Shown here piece after piece: positions 32,538-38,253 of a DNA stretch of 64,000 nucleotides. The notes under the pieces were generated by a model. The model ran no database searches and had not been told where the DNA came from. It worked only from the letters and a program-made list of their open reading frames with translations. Each line of letters opens with the position of its first letter. The stretch's first letter is position 1. The position numbers were made by a program, and so were the translations under genes. This DNA comes from Citrobacter sp. R56 (GTDB lineage Bacteria; Pseudomonadota; Gammaproteobacteria; Enterobacterales; Enterobacteriaceae): the NCBI RefSeq assembly GCF_016811995.1, contig NZ_CP069159.1, positions 3,410,001-3,474,000 of the forward strand, given 5' to 3'.

Positions 32538-33617
32538 ATGAAGGGATGTCTGACCGGAGTGGCTTTATGGTTGTATTCTGGCTGCGTGATGGCGACGCAG
32601 TTAGACATTAAGAACCTCAGCTTCAACTATCCTGAGAGCACGGAAATTCAGTATCGTCTCCCCTGGTTCACCTCAGCGGATAACCCACAAGCCGCAAAAC
32701 GCATCAACGATTTTATCTTCTCCCGTTTTCTGAACCAGTTGCCGGGTAACGATCCGCAGGCCACGTTGAATAAACTGGCAAAAAGCGGCATTGATGCCAC
32801 CGCCAATCTGGACTACACCGTCGAATATCGTGACAGCAAAATACTGACATTAAACCTTTTTGTGGAAGGCTGCGGCGCCTATTGCGAGTCTTACAATGTT
32901 CCACTGAGCTTCGATCTAGCGAGCGGTGCAAATATCACCCTCGACGATCTGTTTTCCCCGGCCACCATTGCCCAGTTAAACACCCGCGTCAGAAAAGATA
33001 TTCGCTCCCAGATAACCACCTTTGTTGATAAGCATAAGTCCGAGTCGGCAGAGCAAATCAAAGCGGAAAAAGGCGAAGATTTTAATTACGAAGAGTTCTA
33101 TGCCTCATGCGCGACGTATGAGGGCGGGCTGTACTATGTTGATAATTTCTCGCTCCAGAAAGGCGATCTCGTCTTCATTAATGGACGTTGCAGCAACCAT
33201 GCAAGCCGCGCGATGGATGAGCTCGGTGATTTCACGACGAAAATCGCCGCCGCAACGTTACACGACCAACTGACCCCCTACGGGAAGTCACTGACTTCCG
33301 GTAACAGTGAAAAAACCCTCTCCCCTGCCCCCTCGCTTAACGGCAAGTTAGTCTACGGCACGTTGGGAAAAAGTATGCGCATCGTGATGAATATCACCTG
33401 TAATGAAGCATCGGCCAGCGGAGCCTACTTTTATGAAAAATACGGCTCACCTATCGAACTTACCGGTAAATGCGGTACGGAGAATGCTCAGCACTATGAG
33501 CTGAGAACGAGTATTTCTGCTGAAACCGAAGAGAAGATCACGCTGGATTTAAAAGAGGGTGTCTATCAGGGTGTCTGGGAATCGAATGGGAAAACGCTCC
33601 CCATTCGCTTTGAATAA
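32538..33617 (+). CDS. Secreted protein of unknown function, possibly DUF4163/DUF3298 (RsiV/PdaC-like)
   Basis: I do not recognise this 359-residue gene by name. It has a signal peptide (about residues 1-19, cleavage near CVMA-TQ; a weak lipobox YSGC is an alternative). The central part resembles RsiV/PdaC-type modules: an N-terminal segment of the form 'NPQAAKRINDFIFSRF', then SFDLASGANITLDDLF, typical of DUF3298. Several cysteines could form periplasmic disulfides. A C-terminal domain (about 265-359) contains GAYFYEKYGSPIELTGK, a pattern seen in secreted beta-rich domains. The SD AAAGGA fits the start. It is not present at this place in E. coli K-12. A REP unit follows, so it forms its own transcription unit or a tail of panE-yajL. 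Confidence 0.7.
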   Translation: MKGCLTGVALWLYSGCVMATQLDIKNLSFNYPESTEIQYRLPWFTSADNPQAAKRINDFIFSRFLNQLPGNDPQATLNKLAKSGIDATANLDYTVEYRDSKILTLNLFVEGCGAYCESYNVPLSFDLASGANITLDDLFSPATIAQLNTRVRKDIRSQITTFVDKHKSESAEQIKAEKGEDFNYEEFYASCATYEGGLYYVDNFSLQKGDLVFINGRCSNHASRAMDELGDFTTKIAAATLHDQLTPYGKSLTSGNSEKTLSPAPSLNGKLVYGTLGKSMRIVMNITCNEASASGAYFYEKYGSPIELTGKCGTENAQHYELRTSISAETEEKITLDLKEGVYQGVWESNGKTLPIRFE

Positions 33618-33629
33618 CAGTGTCAGATT

Positions 33630-33662
33630 GCCGGATGACGGCGTAATACTTCGTCATCCGGC
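33630..33662. repeat. REP unit downstream of the unknown secreted gene
   Basis: GCCGGATGACG...CGTCATCCGGC, a perfect 11-bp inverted repeat of REP form, between this gene and the convergent molybdoenzyme operon. It may also terminate transcription. Confidence 0.85.
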
Positions 33663-33703
33663 CTGCAAAAATACTGCGTTCGAAGAGGGAAAAACATACC
33701 CGC

Positions 33704-34492
33704 TTAGAACCATGGCGCTCCGCTCATGACATTACTGTAAAACAGCATTCTTCCCGCCAGTTCGCCCGTCACAATAACGGCCCCCCACGCGTAAGCGCTT
33801 ACCCCAACATTCAGGCGAGAAATGCCCCATACGGCAACACAGATACTGGCTAATAGCTGCCACCAGAACAGAGGACTTGCAGCATCAGCGCCCGGAACCT
33901 GGAAGCGGATCAACAACGCGCCTGCGCTTAACAAAATTCCGATGATGATCCCAGATTTGCATAAGATCGGGGATGCGTTATGCCAGTAGCCAAACGCCAC
34001 CGCCACACTCATAAACCCGAGCAGAATAGCCGTTGCCAAAAAACTGACAGGTGTAGCAACCGAAGACCACAGCGGATGCAGCACCATCTGATGGTAAACC
34101 TGCGACGTCACCAGAATAGATATCAGCCCCACAAGCGCAGTGATTCCCCCCAGAAGGCCAACGGCATGATGTTCAGGCTTATACCAACACAGCACTAGCC
34201 AGCAGAATATCACGCCATTCAACGCAATAAACATCGCCACTTCCCGACTAAGCCAGGAATTCCCTAACCCGAAAAGCGAGCGATAAGCGCCTTCAGGCGA
34301 TCCCAGGTGCGCCAGCGAGGCAAACGATCCCAGCACCGTGATAACCCAGAACCATGATGCCAGCGTGCGGTATTGCATCGCGCTGAATTTTTTTGTGCTG
34401 AAATGCTGACACAGCGTTAACGCCAGTACGCCGCCAATTCCCCACTGCGCAAAGACGGTGAAGAAAACCAATGGCAATTCATAATGTTCCAT
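33704..34492 (-). CDS. DmsC-like membrane anchor subunit
   Basis: A 262-residue protein with about eight transmembrane helices, similar to DmsC, the quinol-oxidising anchor of DMSO reductase. Shared landmarks include SLAHLGSPEGAYRSLFGLGNSWLSRE in the first periplasmic region and GELAGRMLFYSN near the C-terminus. DmsC anchors take electrons from menaquinol and pass them to the FeS subunit. It is the last gene of the leftward three-gene operon, and its start is preceded by GAGGAGAAC inside the end of the FeS gene. I cannot name the substrate of the complex, so I give no dms symbol. Confidence 0.88.
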   Translation of the reverse strand: MEHYELPLVFFTVFAQWGIGGVLALTLCQHFSTKKFSAMQYRTLASWFWVITVLGSFASLAHLGSPEGAYRSLFGLGNSWLSREVAMFIALNGVIFCWLVLCWYKPEHHAVGLLGGITALVGLISILVTSQVYHQMVLHPLWSSVATPVSFLATAILLGFMSVAVAFGYWHNASPILCKSGIIIGILLSAGALLIRFQVPGADAASPLFWWQLLASICVAVWGISRLNVGVSAYAWGAVIVTGELAGRMLFYSNVMSGAPWF

Positions 34493-34502
34493 TTCGTTCT
34501 CC

Positions 34503-35048
34503 TCAATCCCTGGGGGGAATAATGACAATGTTTGGCTGACTGATCGTGTGATCGGGCAGGTTGTAGCGTTTTTCCAGTATCGCCCACTGCGTCGTGTGTT
34601 CCTTACGCAATTCCGCTATCTCACCAAAGCGTAATACGCCTGCCGGACAGGACTCCACGCAACGTGGCTGTAACCCCTCATCAAGGCGTTCGGCACACAG
34701 GTTGCATTTACTGGTTTTACCTTCTTCGGGATCGTAAACCGGCGCGCTCCACGGGCAGGCCATGATGCACATCCGACAGCCAATGCAGCGCTCGTGATCC
34801 TGTATCACGATGCCATCAGCCCGCTTCGTATACGTTCCCGCTGGACACACTTTCATACACTGCGGGTCATCGCACTGATTGCACGACATACTAATAAACG
34901 CCTGGGTGTTGGGTTCATCCGTATGACGTTCGCGAACCCGACGCCATAACACCCCAAGAGGGGTCATATTTTCCGATTTGCAGGCCATGCTACAGGTTTT
35001 GCAGCCATAGCAATTCTGCATATCAATAAGAAATCCATATTGTTTCAT
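34503..35048 (-). CDS. DmsB-like iron-sulfur electron-transfer subunit
   Basis: A 181-residue ferredoxin-like subunit with sixteen cysteines in four clusters, in the classic pattern for four [4Fe-4S] centres: Cys13/16/19/23, 56/59/64/68, 88/91/94/98 and 115/118/130/134. It has no Tat signal of its own, as expected for a partner exported with the catalytic subunit. The frame is open upstream, but the ATG at 35048 is just after the end of the catalytic gene and starts MKQYGFLIDMQNCYGCK. It passes electrons between the DmsC-like anchor and the molybdenum subunit. Confidence 0.92.
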   Translation of the reverse strand: MKQYGFLIDMQNCYGCKTCSMACKSENMTPLGVLWRRVRERHTDEPNTQAFISMSCNQCDDPQCMKVCPAGTYTKRADGIVIQDHERCIGCRMCIMACPWSAPVYDPEEGKTSKCNLCAERLDEGLQPRCVESCPAGVLRFGEIAELRKEHTTQWAILEKRYNLPDHTISQPNIVIIPPRD

Positions 35049-35053
35049 CGCGA

Positions 35054-37387
35054 TTATGCCTCCCTTCTCACATCCACCAGCGTACTGTTGCAACAGTGTC
35101 CATTCCCCAACACTTCCACCTGATCGTTAGTGACATGACTGCTGCTTCCGCCCTGTTGCTCCCACCAACCGTTATCCAGACTCACCACCCCGCGTTTGAT
35201 ATGTGTGGTCACGTCGGCAATCGCCCGATGTTGTCCGCGATGATTGAACACCACGACCCACTCTCCTGCCTGGATCTGACGCTGGCGGGCGTCTTCAGGG
35301 TGAATCATCACGTTCGGGCGGTTACGCTGAACTTCGAGGATCCATTCGTTCATGCCGTGGCTGGAATGCACACTGCGCGCCAGTTTGCGCTGCACCGCCA
35401 TTAGCGGATACTGACTCGCCAGTTCAGGCGAACCTTTTACCGACTCTTTCACCTGCTTCCAGGTCACCACCGGCAGAAAATCCTTTTTGGCCCACTCCTC
35501 TATGTAGAGGTGCGCTTTGCCGGTCGATGTGCGGAACTGCCCGTCTTTAAACGGGATCCACTCTTCCTCAACAGGACATACCGGCCCTTTTTTCAACATT
35601 TCACGGGTAATGCCCGAGCCTTTAAGACAGGTATCGATGTAGTGTTCAATGGGCTGGTTAAAGACCTCACCAAAGCCAAAGCGCTCGGCCAGGCGAGCAA
35701 AAATCCAGTAATCGGGTTTTGCTTCTCCTGGGGGTTCCACCGCTTTTTCCATCAGTTGCACATAGTGACTGCGCACGCCCGCCATTAAGCTGACATCTTC
35801 AAAAATCGTGGTTACAGGCAAAACCAGATCGGCGTACAACGCAGACGAACTCATCAGATTGTCGGCTACCACCACAAACGGCACTTTTTTAAAGGCTTCC
35901 CTGACCTGATTGGTATTCGGCAGTTGTGTCATGGCCCCCAGCGTCATGTTCCACCAGAACTTAATCGCGTGCGGTTTTTCGTTAACGACCCAGTCACCGA
36001 TTTTGGGAATAGGAATGGAGGGGATTTTGGCGGCATTGGGTGCCGGAGGGACGATGGGCGAAAATTTTGCCATCTGTCTGACGCCACCGGCATCGCAAAC
36101 CCCCGCCCCGGCTTTGCCGATATTGCCGGTGATCAGCGCGAGATAAAACTGGCTGGCCGCAACGTAAGTGCCAAACTCGGTTCGCTGCGCACCGGACATG
36201 TTCTGGACAATCATCGCCGGTTGCGTTGACGCGTAATCCCGCGCCAGGCGTAATACCGTCTGCGCGGGGACATCGGTTTCTTCCTCTACCTTTTGCGCCG
36301 TCCAGGGCTTCGCCTGTGCCCATACGTTATCAAGCACGGTGGTAAAATCACTGCTGGCGGGCAATTCATCACTCAGCAATGCAGGCATGACGCCTGGCGC
36401 ATCATGGCGTTTCAGGGTCTGGGTCAGCGTATCAAATACCAGATAGCTGTCTGCTTCCTTCGGGTCAACACGCATCAACTGCTGCTGTTTATCGACCAGG
36501 TAAACCGCTCCGGTATGCGCACGCAGGAAGTCAGCGTCATAGCGTTTCTCCTGCATGATGATGTTGATCATCCCTAACGCCAGCGCGATATCTGTACCAG
36601 GCACAATCGGCACCCACTCGTCAGCTTTCGCCGCCGTTTCGTTAAATCGCGGATCGATCACCACCAGTCGCGCACCGTTGCGTTGCGCCTGTGAGTAATG
36701 TTTAAAATAGGCGTGCATGGTGACTGCCGGATTGTTTCCCCAGCACAAGATGTAGCGGCTGTCTGCTATCGTGTCGCGGGTATCGGCATAACGCAGTCCC
36801 ACCATCGGCATCATCGCGGCGGTGACCGCTGCGCAACATAACGAGCCGGCCGTTTTTGTACTGCCACCGAGATAATCGAAGAAGGCTTTGCCCATATCAT
36901 TCTTGATGGAGTCCATGTTCCCGGAAGCGGCTGTGAGCAGTAAACCTTTATTGCCGTCAGTGCCGATTGTCTCCCTGATTTTCTTTTCAATCAGATCCAG
37001 CGCGGCATCCCAGCTGATCGGCTTAAATTTACCCTCGCCTTTTTCCCCCGTACGCAGCAGCGGTTGCGTTAAGCGTAACGGGTGGTAGACCCATTTCGTC
37101 CGGCTAATTCCCCGCAAACAGCACTTCACATTGAAGCCTTTCGTCGCTTCAATTTTCATTAAGCGGTCTTTCCAGACATACGCCGTCAGGTTGCAGTGCA
37201 AACATTCCATCGCACAGGTCGACTGAAACGTCTGGTAATCCGTTTGCTTAAGGCGAACCCGGGGCAACGGTGAACCGTTGGCCTGGCGCAGCGTCAGAAA
37301 CGTTGGCACCAGTGACGATAACCCCACTACGCCAAACCCTTTTAGCAGGGTTCTTCTTTTTAATCGGGTATTGCTCAATGCATCCAT
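35054..37387 (-). CDS. DMSO-reductase-family molybdopterin catalytic subunit, substrate unknown
   Basis: A 777-residue periplasmic molybdoenzyme. A twin-arginine signal (LKRRTLLKGFGVVG, residues 9-22) precedes an N-terminal [4Fe-4S] site with Cys58, 62, 65 and Cys89 or 90 (ending CCLRG). MGD-binding landmarks follow, such as LCWGNNPAVTMHA, VVIDPRFNET and VPGTDIALA, and a C-terminal molydopterin dinucleotide-binding domain. By eye, the Ser that binds molybdenum in E. coli DmsA (in YSSAQ) falls on Cys184/185 (LCCAAV). A cysteine ligand is typical of polysulfide, thiosulfate and nitrate (Nap) enzymes. The start at 37387 follows GGAGGCAAGGAC. No dedicated DmsD-type chaperone gene is adjacent. An FNR box and a divergent IclR regulator lie upstream. 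Confidence 0.85.
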   Translation of the reverse strand: MDALSNTRLKRRTLLKGFGVVGLSSLVPTFLTLRQANGSPLPRVRLKQTDYQTFQSTCAMECLHCNLTAYVWKDRLMKIEATKGFNVKCCLRGISRTKWVYHPLRLTQPLLRTGEKGEGKFKPISWDAALDLIEKKIRETIGTDGNKGLLLTAASGNMDSIKNDMGKAFFDYLGGSTKTAGSLCCAAVTAAMMPMVGLRYADTRDTIADSRYILCWGNNPAVTMHAYFKHYSQAQRNGARLVVIDPRFNETAAKADEWVPIVPGTDIALALGMINIIMQEKRYDADFLRAHTGAVYLVDKQQQLMRVDPKEADSYLVFDTLTQTLKRHDAPGVMPALLSDELPASSDFTTVLDNVWAQAKPWTAQKVEEETDVPAQTVLRLARDYASTQPAMIVQNMSGAQRTEFGTYVAASQFYLALITGNIGKAGAGVCDAGGVRQMAKFSPIVPPAPNAAKIPSIPIPKIGDWVVNEKPHAIKFWWNMTLGAMTQLPNTNQVREAFKKVPFVVVADNLMSSSALYADLVLPVTTIFEDVSLMAGVRSHYVQLMEKAVEPPGEAKPDYWIFARLAERFGFGEVFNQPIEHYIDTCLKGSGITREMLKKGPVCPVEEEWIPFKDGQFRTSTGKAHLYIEEWAKKDFLPVVTWKQVKESVKGSPELASQYPLMAVQRKLARSVHSSHGMNEWILEVQRNRPNVMIHPEDARQRQIQAGEWVVVFNHRGQHRAIADVTTHIKRGVVSLDNGWWEQQGGSSSHVTNDQVEVLGNGHCCNSTLVDVRREA

Positions 37388-37443
37388 GTCCTTGCCTCCA
37401 CAAAAGTTCACCATTAGTTAATCCAGGTACACCATTGATTAAC

Positions 37444-37457
37444 TTGATACAGGTCAA
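37444..37457. promoter_or_regulatory. FNR box upstream of the molybdoenzyme operon
   Basis: TTGATACAGGTCAA matches the FNR consensus TTGAT-N4-ATCAA at nine of ten positions. Its centre is 63 bp from the catalytic-gene start, which allows a class II promoter with transcription starting near 37409. It supports anaerobic induction of a respiratory reductase. Confidence 0.8.
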
Positions 37458-37557
37458 CGTCTCACCATTTAGGCGTAGCGCGCTTTTTAAATTGCGAAGG
37501 CAGTAAGGATTTCAGCCGCGATGGTATACTCGCGATGGATAAAAAAAGAGAACGCAT

Positions 37558-38253
37558 ATGGCTGAAACATCGCAAGGGGTAAATTCGGTTGATATCGCCG
37601 TCAACATTCTGACGTTTGTTGCCAGTCAAAACGGTCAGGCGCGGGCAATCGATATCGCCACCGGATGCAAATTGTCCAAAAGTCGTTTACATAAGTATCT
37701 GGTTTCGCTCTGTCGAACGGGTATGCTGGGGCAAAACGAAAAAGGGCTCTATTGCCTGGGGTCAACCCTTCTTCAGATGGCGGGAGATCCGGCGGCAGCA
37801 CGCGATCCGGTGAGTGAGCTTAATACGCTGCTGATCGCTTTTCGCGATACCTTCAACCATTCAACCGGTGTCGTCATCGCGACCGACACAGGATTGGTGC
37901 TTAAGCACTACAATCGCAGTTTTCGTAACGTGGATATCGATTTTCTGCCCAATACGCCCGTTCCGCTTGATGCCAGTTCAGCAGGGCAAGTGTTCATGAG
38001 TTATTCCCACTATCAGGCGCAGAATAAGGCGCAAGCGCAACTCATTGAACAGATACAGTCTCAGGGCTATGCGGTGCGCCACAATCCGACGCAAGGGATC
38101 CCTGGCGCACAGTCGATTGCCTGTCCGCTGCGGAATAAAAATGGAGAGCTGGTTGCGATTGCGGTGACGATGGGATTTTTTAGTACAGAAGCCATCCCGC
38201 AAATTGCCGACCAGTTGGTGAGAAGCGTCGCGACGCTTTATTCGCAGGATTAA
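37558..38253 (+). CDS. IclR-family transcriptional regulator
   Basis: A 231-residue regulator with an N-terminal winged helix (about 10-70; ARAIDIATGCKLSKSRLHKYLVSLCRTGML) and a C-terminal IclR effector domain (about 85-230) that includes PLDASSAGQVFMSYS and a distal SIACPLRNKNGELVAIAVTMG. The gene is divergent from the molybdoenzyme operon across 170 bp, so it probably controls it; the effector is unknown but IclR proteins usually sense small organic acids or aromatics. A TATACT -10 lies at 37525-37530. It is convergent with thiI over a shared terminator. Confidence 0.88.
   Translation: MAETSQGVNSVDIAVNILTFVASQNGQARAIDIATGCKLSKSRLHKYLVSLCRTGMLGQNEKGLYCLGSTLLQMAGDPAAARDPVSELNTLLIAFRDTFNHSTGVVIATDTGLVLKHYNRSFRNVDIDFLPNTPVPLDASSAGQVFMSYSHYQAQNKAQAQLIEQIQSQGYAVRHNPTQGIPGAQSIACPLRNKNGELVAIAVTMGFFSTEAIPQIADQLVRSVATLYSQD

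Follow-up and report, generated by a model that had tools for sequence, protein, structure and literature searches.

A DmsABC-like operon and its divergent regulator gene

The subject of this analysis is a complete operon of three minus-strand genes with the DmsABC layout, found at 33704-37387 of a 64,000-nucleotide stretch of Citrobacter sp. R56 (contig NZ_CP069159.1, positions 3,410,001 to 3,474,000), hereafter called the window. It codes for a catalytic subunit (A), an electron-transfer subunit (B) and a membrane anchor (C), and the molybdenum site and iron-sulfur motif of A are our main concern. A first-pass annotation had already described this layout, with coordinates that are correct for the three genes; we add to it a divergent gene for an IclR-type regulator and the promoter region lying between that gene and A.

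Subunit A (35054-37387, minus strand, 777 aa) is a DmsA-like protein of the type carrying molybdenum (Mo) bis(molybdopterin guanine dinucleotide) (bis-MGD), and has 26 homologous loci. It scores over the cut-off for PF00384 (Molybdopterin, 185.7 bits) and PF01568 (Molydop_binding, 72.0 bits) and, by both domains, is a member of the dimethyl sulfoxide (DMSO) reductase (MopB) superfamily; a twin-arginine signal, RRTLLKG, was read by eye. Its ATG at 37387 is preceded by a ribosome site, GGAGG (37395-37399 in plus-strand coordinates). The longer start at 37414 in the open reading frame (ORF) list, which gives a 786-aa ORF, was rejected as less likely than 37387. Residue numbers from C67 to C194 follow this 786-aa ORF; Cys193/194 are the residues 184/185 of the first-pass annotation.

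Subunit B (34503-35048, minus strand) is a DmsB-like four-cluster electron-transfer protein with 16 cluster Cys in the alignment; its best NCBIfam match is TIGR02951 (DmsB), at 174.6 bits for a cut-off of 214.1. The anchor C (33704-34492, minus strand) is of the DmsC type (PF04976, 79.8 bits, cut-off 22.3); in the NCBIfam and Pfam scans, it matched Pfam DmsC but no NCBIfam model. The equivalents of DmsC His65 and Glu87 are kept in the eight clade anchors that were aligned, the window's included; these two residues have been tied by mutation to quinol oxidation and coordination (PMC8076601). Their conservation, together with the 16 cluster Cys of B, argues for an electron flow from menaquinol to an acceptor. 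The divergent regulator gene (37558-38253, plus strand) codes for a helix-turn-helix domain over the cut-off (PF09339, 29.4 bits, cut-off 22) and a ligand domain below it (PF01614, 20.9 bits, cut-off 24).

Molybdenum-ligand site, iron-sulfur motif and placement of A

According to the first-pass annotation, A seems to carry Cys where E. coli DmsA has the Ser that binds Mo, and the alignments bear this out. With MAFFT, Cys193 shares a column with the Ser of DmsA (which we take to be Ser176), the Cys of NapA, the selenocysteine (Sec) of FdhF and the Cys of PhsA; when 13 clade sequences are aligned, profile to profile, with a DmsA-type set (6 sequences), a Nap/Fdh set (3) and a Phs/Arr-type set (3), Cys193 is paired with the ligand residue in all three comparisons; and in pairwise phmmer alignments, the ligands of PsrA and of the HDCR formate dehydrogenase pair with it as well. 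A Ser at the Mo position, named in that annotation as one observation that would speak against its proposal, is not what these alignments show. Both Cys193 and Cys194, in the motif LCCAAV (codons at 36833-36838, minus strand), are invariant in 27/27 homologues, i.e., the window and the 26 loci. In the multi-row alignment, the row of NarG, whose ligand is presumably Asp, is shifted by one position at the ligand column, and only S176 and R217 of DmsA were used from it; the position that we take to be Arg217 of DmsA is Met in A.

The alignments suggest that the Mo ligand of A is probably a Cys, the first of the adjacent pair (Cys193). Some observations weigh against this choice: phmmer pairs the Cys of acetylene hydratase with Cys194, not Cys193, and the residue that we take to be the ligand Asp of perchlorate reductase with Ala195, i.e., with neither Cys. 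Moreover, the AlphaFold model, built from a 13-row alignment, is poor (mean predicted local distance difference test score of 49), and the ligand thus has no structural support.

The N-terminal [4Fe-4S] motif of A (37118-37216, minus strand) reads C67-x3-C71-x2-C74-x24-C99 with an extra C98: C74 is followed by 23 residues, then by C98-C99-LRG. This spacing had been pointed out in the first-pass annotation as unusual, and rightly so. The motif aligns with the cluster motifs of DmsA, NapA and PhsA, both with MAFFT and in the profile comparisons; compared with DmsA, the profile alignment brings the second and third Cys one residue closer together and shortens the loop to the fourth. The C-x3-C-x2-C spacing occurs in 0/28 reference rows versus 6/6 clade rows scanned, the references having C-x2-C-x3-C (10 rows), C-x3-C-x3-C (11) or neither (7, two of which are partial rows). 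The Pfam Fe4S4 domain PF04879, present in 5/5 references, was not reported for A even at E<=10. The seven cysteines of A (67, 71, 74, 98, 99, 193 and 194) are constant in the 27 homologues, so that neither the motif nor the Cys pair can be put down to error or chance; a sequence error at either place was rejected on this ground. In PMC11574389, C-x3-C-x2-C is mentioned with regard to radical S-adenosylmethionine enzymes.

The placement of A was addressed with a tree and approximately unbiased (AU) tests on 30 rows, a set with long branches, few references and partial PDB rows. Long branches met in a first tree of 34 rows, and Rhodococcus, acetylene hydratase and two clade rows (L021 and L023) were then dropped. 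In the 30-row tree, the clade of A is one group (100/100), outside DmsA+TorA (100/99), and falls within a set holding DmsA, TorA, NarG, PcrA and haloarchaeal enzymes (97/95), termed here the Ser/Asp side; its nearest neighbour, weakly supported (83/78), is a protein encoded by a Methylophaga plasmid. A topology constrained to join the clade to DmsA/YnfE is rejected (AU p 0.0123), while one joining it to Psr/Phs/Ttr/Arr (AU p 0.176) or to Fdh/Nap (NapA/FdhF/FdnG; AU p 0.18) is not. By these tests, A lies outside DmsA/YnfE, its deeper placement being tentative; the phylogeny called for in the first-pass annotation gives no nesting inside the characterised DmsA/YnfE.

A could be a functionally ordinary S- or N-oxide reductase whose ligand has switched from Ser to Cys, as its DmsB/DmsC-type partners and its top NCBIfam match, the DmsA/YnfE model TIGR02166 (315.7 bits), would suggest. 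This score is, however, far below the cut-off of 777.7, the AU test rejects nesting in DmsA, the presumed Arg217 is replaced by Met, and two DmsA/YnfE-family proteins over the cut-off are already encoded in the same genome; we regard this explanation as improbable. Somewhat less so, though still unlikely in our opinion, is that A is a member of the Psr/Phs/Ttr/Arr half of the superfamily whose substrate is polysulfide, thiosulfate or something similar, and which has acquired its DmsB/DmsC-type partners. It would share the Cys ligand with that half, its top PDB match is PsrA, albeit narrowly (3.5e-53 versus 5.6e-53 for the HDCR formate dehydrogenase), and the joint grouping is among those not rejected. 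On the other hand, the best tree places the clade elsewhere, its cluster motif differs from C-x2-C-x3-C, and the models for PhsA (NF012032, 257.7 bits, cut-off 694), TtrA (NF011567, 72.8 of 1750 bits) and ArrA (NF041714, 110.3 of 1600 bits) are all far from their cut-offs. In addition, the profile of the clade scores highest with the DmsA set (644.8 versus 472.3 for the Phs/Arr-type set, these sets differing in size), and the genome already encodes a PhsA (1361.7 bits) and a TtrA (2047.4 bits) over those same cut-offs. The NapA and Fdh-alpha models give 125.4 of 904 bits and 234.4 of 666.25 bits, respectively. The reference searches yielded type II enzymes in 0/200 cases, ArrA in 1/200 (below the cut-off) and PhsA in 2/143, the one over the cut-off being that of the window's own genome.

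Distribution of the module and its promoter region

We scanned genome_contigs, in which 84,980 species are represented by a single genome each, for exact peptides of A, a strategy that finds close relatives only. The scan gave 26 loci encoding a relative of A, 74-93% identical, all of them in Enterobacterales and spread over 11 genera: Proteus (7), Providencia (6), Serratia (3), Buttiauxella (2), Citrobacter (2) and, with one locus each, Edaphovirga, Yersinia, Limnobaculum, Budvicia, Pluralibacter and Leminorella. Among sampled genomes, the window's own included, a match was present in 2/295 of the order, 1/274 of the class (the window's genome itself) and 2/3 of the genus; wider sampling gave only the window's genome and G140 (2/349 at E<=1e-80; 2/299 at E<=1e-45). 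The order, class and phylum samples overlap, and at most three candidates were scored per genome. No match was found in the E. coli genome collection with megablast, which needs roughly 85% identity, and none of the 26 pattern matches in viral contigs is a relative.

The genes of B and C follow A in 26/26 loci, and a regulator gene is near in 24/26, while only 5/26 (Citrobacter, Buttiauxella and Pluralibacter) share the window's flanking genes, the other 21 having different ones. As the flanks vary and the regulator gene stays with A-B-C, the four genes behave as one module. Composition does not point to a recent foreign insertion (guanine plus cytosine content of 53.5% versus 53.2% for the window). 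Such a patchy distribution, seen in the order and genus samples, could also be that of a decaying or non-functional paralogue; however, A is open and full-length with its cofactor residues invariant, B and C are intact beside it in every locus, and the promoter box described below is conserved, and we find decay very improbable. Next to the operon, a gene for a 359-aa protein (32538-33617) is matched in one (L040) of the five loci sharing the window's flanks and is absent from the ORF lists of L021, L022, L037 and L039. As for plasmids, the best match of A among the matches listed (40 of 1141 records) is 32.2% identical and comes from Novosphingobium pentaromativorans plasmid pLA3 (L066:4947-9160), where genes for a molybdopterin oxidoreductase, a 4Fe-4S protein and a FAD-dependent oxidoreductase are flanked by TonB-receptor genes.

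Between A and the regulator gene, an FNR-type box, TTGATACAGGTCAA, lies at 37444-37457 in a conserved position; no strand is assigned to it or to the two palindromes that follow. No other TTGATNNNNNTCAA occurs in the 64 kb of the window; with 0.53 expected, this single match is unsurprising by itself. Across the upstream regions, a box with at least 8/10 letters of the FNR consensus is found in 26/27 versus 7.1 in shuffles of equal length, and one with 9/10 letters in 13/27 versus 0.6. Directly after the box comes a first imperfect palindrome (37427-37443), then a second (37406-37422), both presumed operators. If the FNR box is assumed to be centred at -41.5, transcription would start near 37409 and the second palindrome would lie over the predicted -10.

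The palindromes were given two scores, consensus match and inverted symmetry. They are significant by at least one of them in 25/25 regulator-bearing loci versus 0/2 loci without the regulator: 22/25 reach p<=0.0005 by the consensus score, and the remaining three (L028, L034 and L041) beat all 1000 shuffles for inverted symmetry. The two loci lacking the regulator, both from Serratia, have kept the FNR-type box and have no significant palindromes (p 0.40, 0.71; 0.89, 0.086). We take this pairing as support and not as proof, since the consensus was derived from the same sequences and the Serratia pair are close kin. Some results also count against this regulatory scheme: the upstream region of L037 has only 7/10 FNR letters; symmetry alone is not significant in 10/25 regulator-bearing loci, including the window (p 0.085); a search of the window for the operator-like pattern, allowing up to 2 mismatches, gives five matches versus 2.0 expected, two of these being the palindromes themselves; and a sigma-70 scan of 33500-37700 found no consensus promoter, which fits an activator-dependent promoter, yet gives the model no support. 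From these predicted sites, we infer binding by FNR and by the regulator, as well as the sign of regulation.

Proposed function and comparison with known systems

Taken together, we consider it likely that the operon codes for a separate kind of Mo reductase, Cys-ligated and dependent on menaquinol, which has partners of the DmsB/DmsC type, is expressed anaerobically and is probably induced by its substrate. A-B-C would form an anaerobic terminal reductase, exported by the twin-arginine route and anchored in the membrane, with a catalytic subunit of its own lineage. Menaquinol would be oxidised at the DmsC-type anchor, and B would then carry the electrons, by its four clusters, to the C-x3-C-x2-C-x24-C cluster of A and from there to Mo bis-MGD, which Cys193 would hold and where a small acceptor would be reduced in the periplasm. 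The sequence itself shows which genes are present, the ligand column, the cluster motif, the quinol residues, the layout of the promoter and how well these are conserved; the electron path and the ligation by C193 are inferences from it. In the absence of oxygen, FNR would activate the operon; the regulator encoded by the divergent IclR-type gene, sitting on the two palindromes beside the FNR box, would keep it repressed until an inducer, the acceptor itself or one of its relatives, is present.

What this acceptor might be is a matter of graded guesses. That the operon has an IclR-type regulator of its own hints at an inducer that is a small organic molecule. The substrates of Cys-ligated members of the superfamily include compounds of sulfur, arsenic, selenium and nitrogen, as well as formate and acetylene (Table 1 of PMC10100899). 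Our leading guess, held with less than even confidence, is a sulfur compound (polysulfide, organic disulfide or sulfur oxyanion); an organic S- or N-oxide, an organic dehydroxylation or similar reaction, and an arsenic or selenium oxyanion or other acceptor seem to us unlikely, all to the same degree. The first-pass annotation had suggested a sulfur compound or another acceptor rather than DMSO: an ordinary DMSO reductase is indeed unlikely, given the Cys at the Mo site, the unusual iron-sulfur motif and the place outside DmsA/YnfE, whereas the sulfur compound is a conjecture; the best tree sets A apart from PsrA/PhsA/TtrA/ArrA, although joining them is not rejected.

In a family table of PMC10100899, the Mo ligand tracks deep lineage: one major clade has Ser or Asp, and most others have Cys/Sec. 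A clade with a Cys ligand, placed by the best tree among the Ser/Asp enzymes and having partners of the DmsB/DmsC type, would put the links between ligand, cluster motif and substrate to the test. The operon may, moreover, represent an unrecognised anaerobic respiration in bacteria related to Citrobacter, Proteus, Providencia, Serratia and Yersinia. The regulator dedicated to it gives a route to the substrate via the inducer. The clade of A is named in no title or abstract opening turned up by our literature searches. In its boldest form, which we advance only tentatively, our proposal is that of an undescribed respiratory Mo-reductase lineage of Enterobacterales, on the Ser/Asp side and yet Cys-ligated, with a vicinal Cys-Cys, a re-spaced C-x3-C-x2-C cluster and an acceptor new for enteric bacteria, sensed by its own IclR-type regulator.

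Two operons or gene groups on plasmids are also of interest. Citrobacter amalonaticus carries on its conjugative IncF plasmid pCIAM-2 (L079:3504-8508) an A-B-C operon annotated as DMSO/selenate family, with a chaperone gene and a NapF gene, adjoining an IS630 transposase; among the matches listed, E. coli plasmids carry some annotated like it. On Methylophaga pinxianii plasmid pWTT2411 (L067:4004-9101), a molybdopterin oxidoreductase gene is followed by genes for a 4Fe-4S protein and a pyridine-nucleotide-disulfide oxidoreductase and by moaA. Like A, this oxidoreductase has Cys in the ligand column; it differs from A by its C-x3-C-x3-C motif, and no membrane anchor is annotated among its neighbours. 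It may represent a further lineage of the Ser/Asp side with a Cys ligand.

With PsrA and PhsA, the polysulfide and thiosulfate reductases, A shares a Cys in the Mo-ligand column, PsrA being also its top solved structure by sequence; it departs from them by their C-x2-C-x3-C motif, by a score under the PhsA cut-off and by its separate position in the best tree, although their grouping is not rejected. With E. coli DmsABC and YnfEFGH, of the DMSO/selenate family, the operon has in common the three-gene layout, a DmsB-like B, a DmsC-type anchor with His65/Glu87 and the twin-arginine signal. Unlike them, A has Cys and not Ser at Mo and C-x3-C-x2-C instead of C-x3-C-x3-C, scores below the family cut-off and falls outside the DmsA clade, and the operon has its own IclR-type regulator. 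What is new here is a lineage, probably Cys-ligated, inside a DmsABC-type complex that has a regulator of its own.

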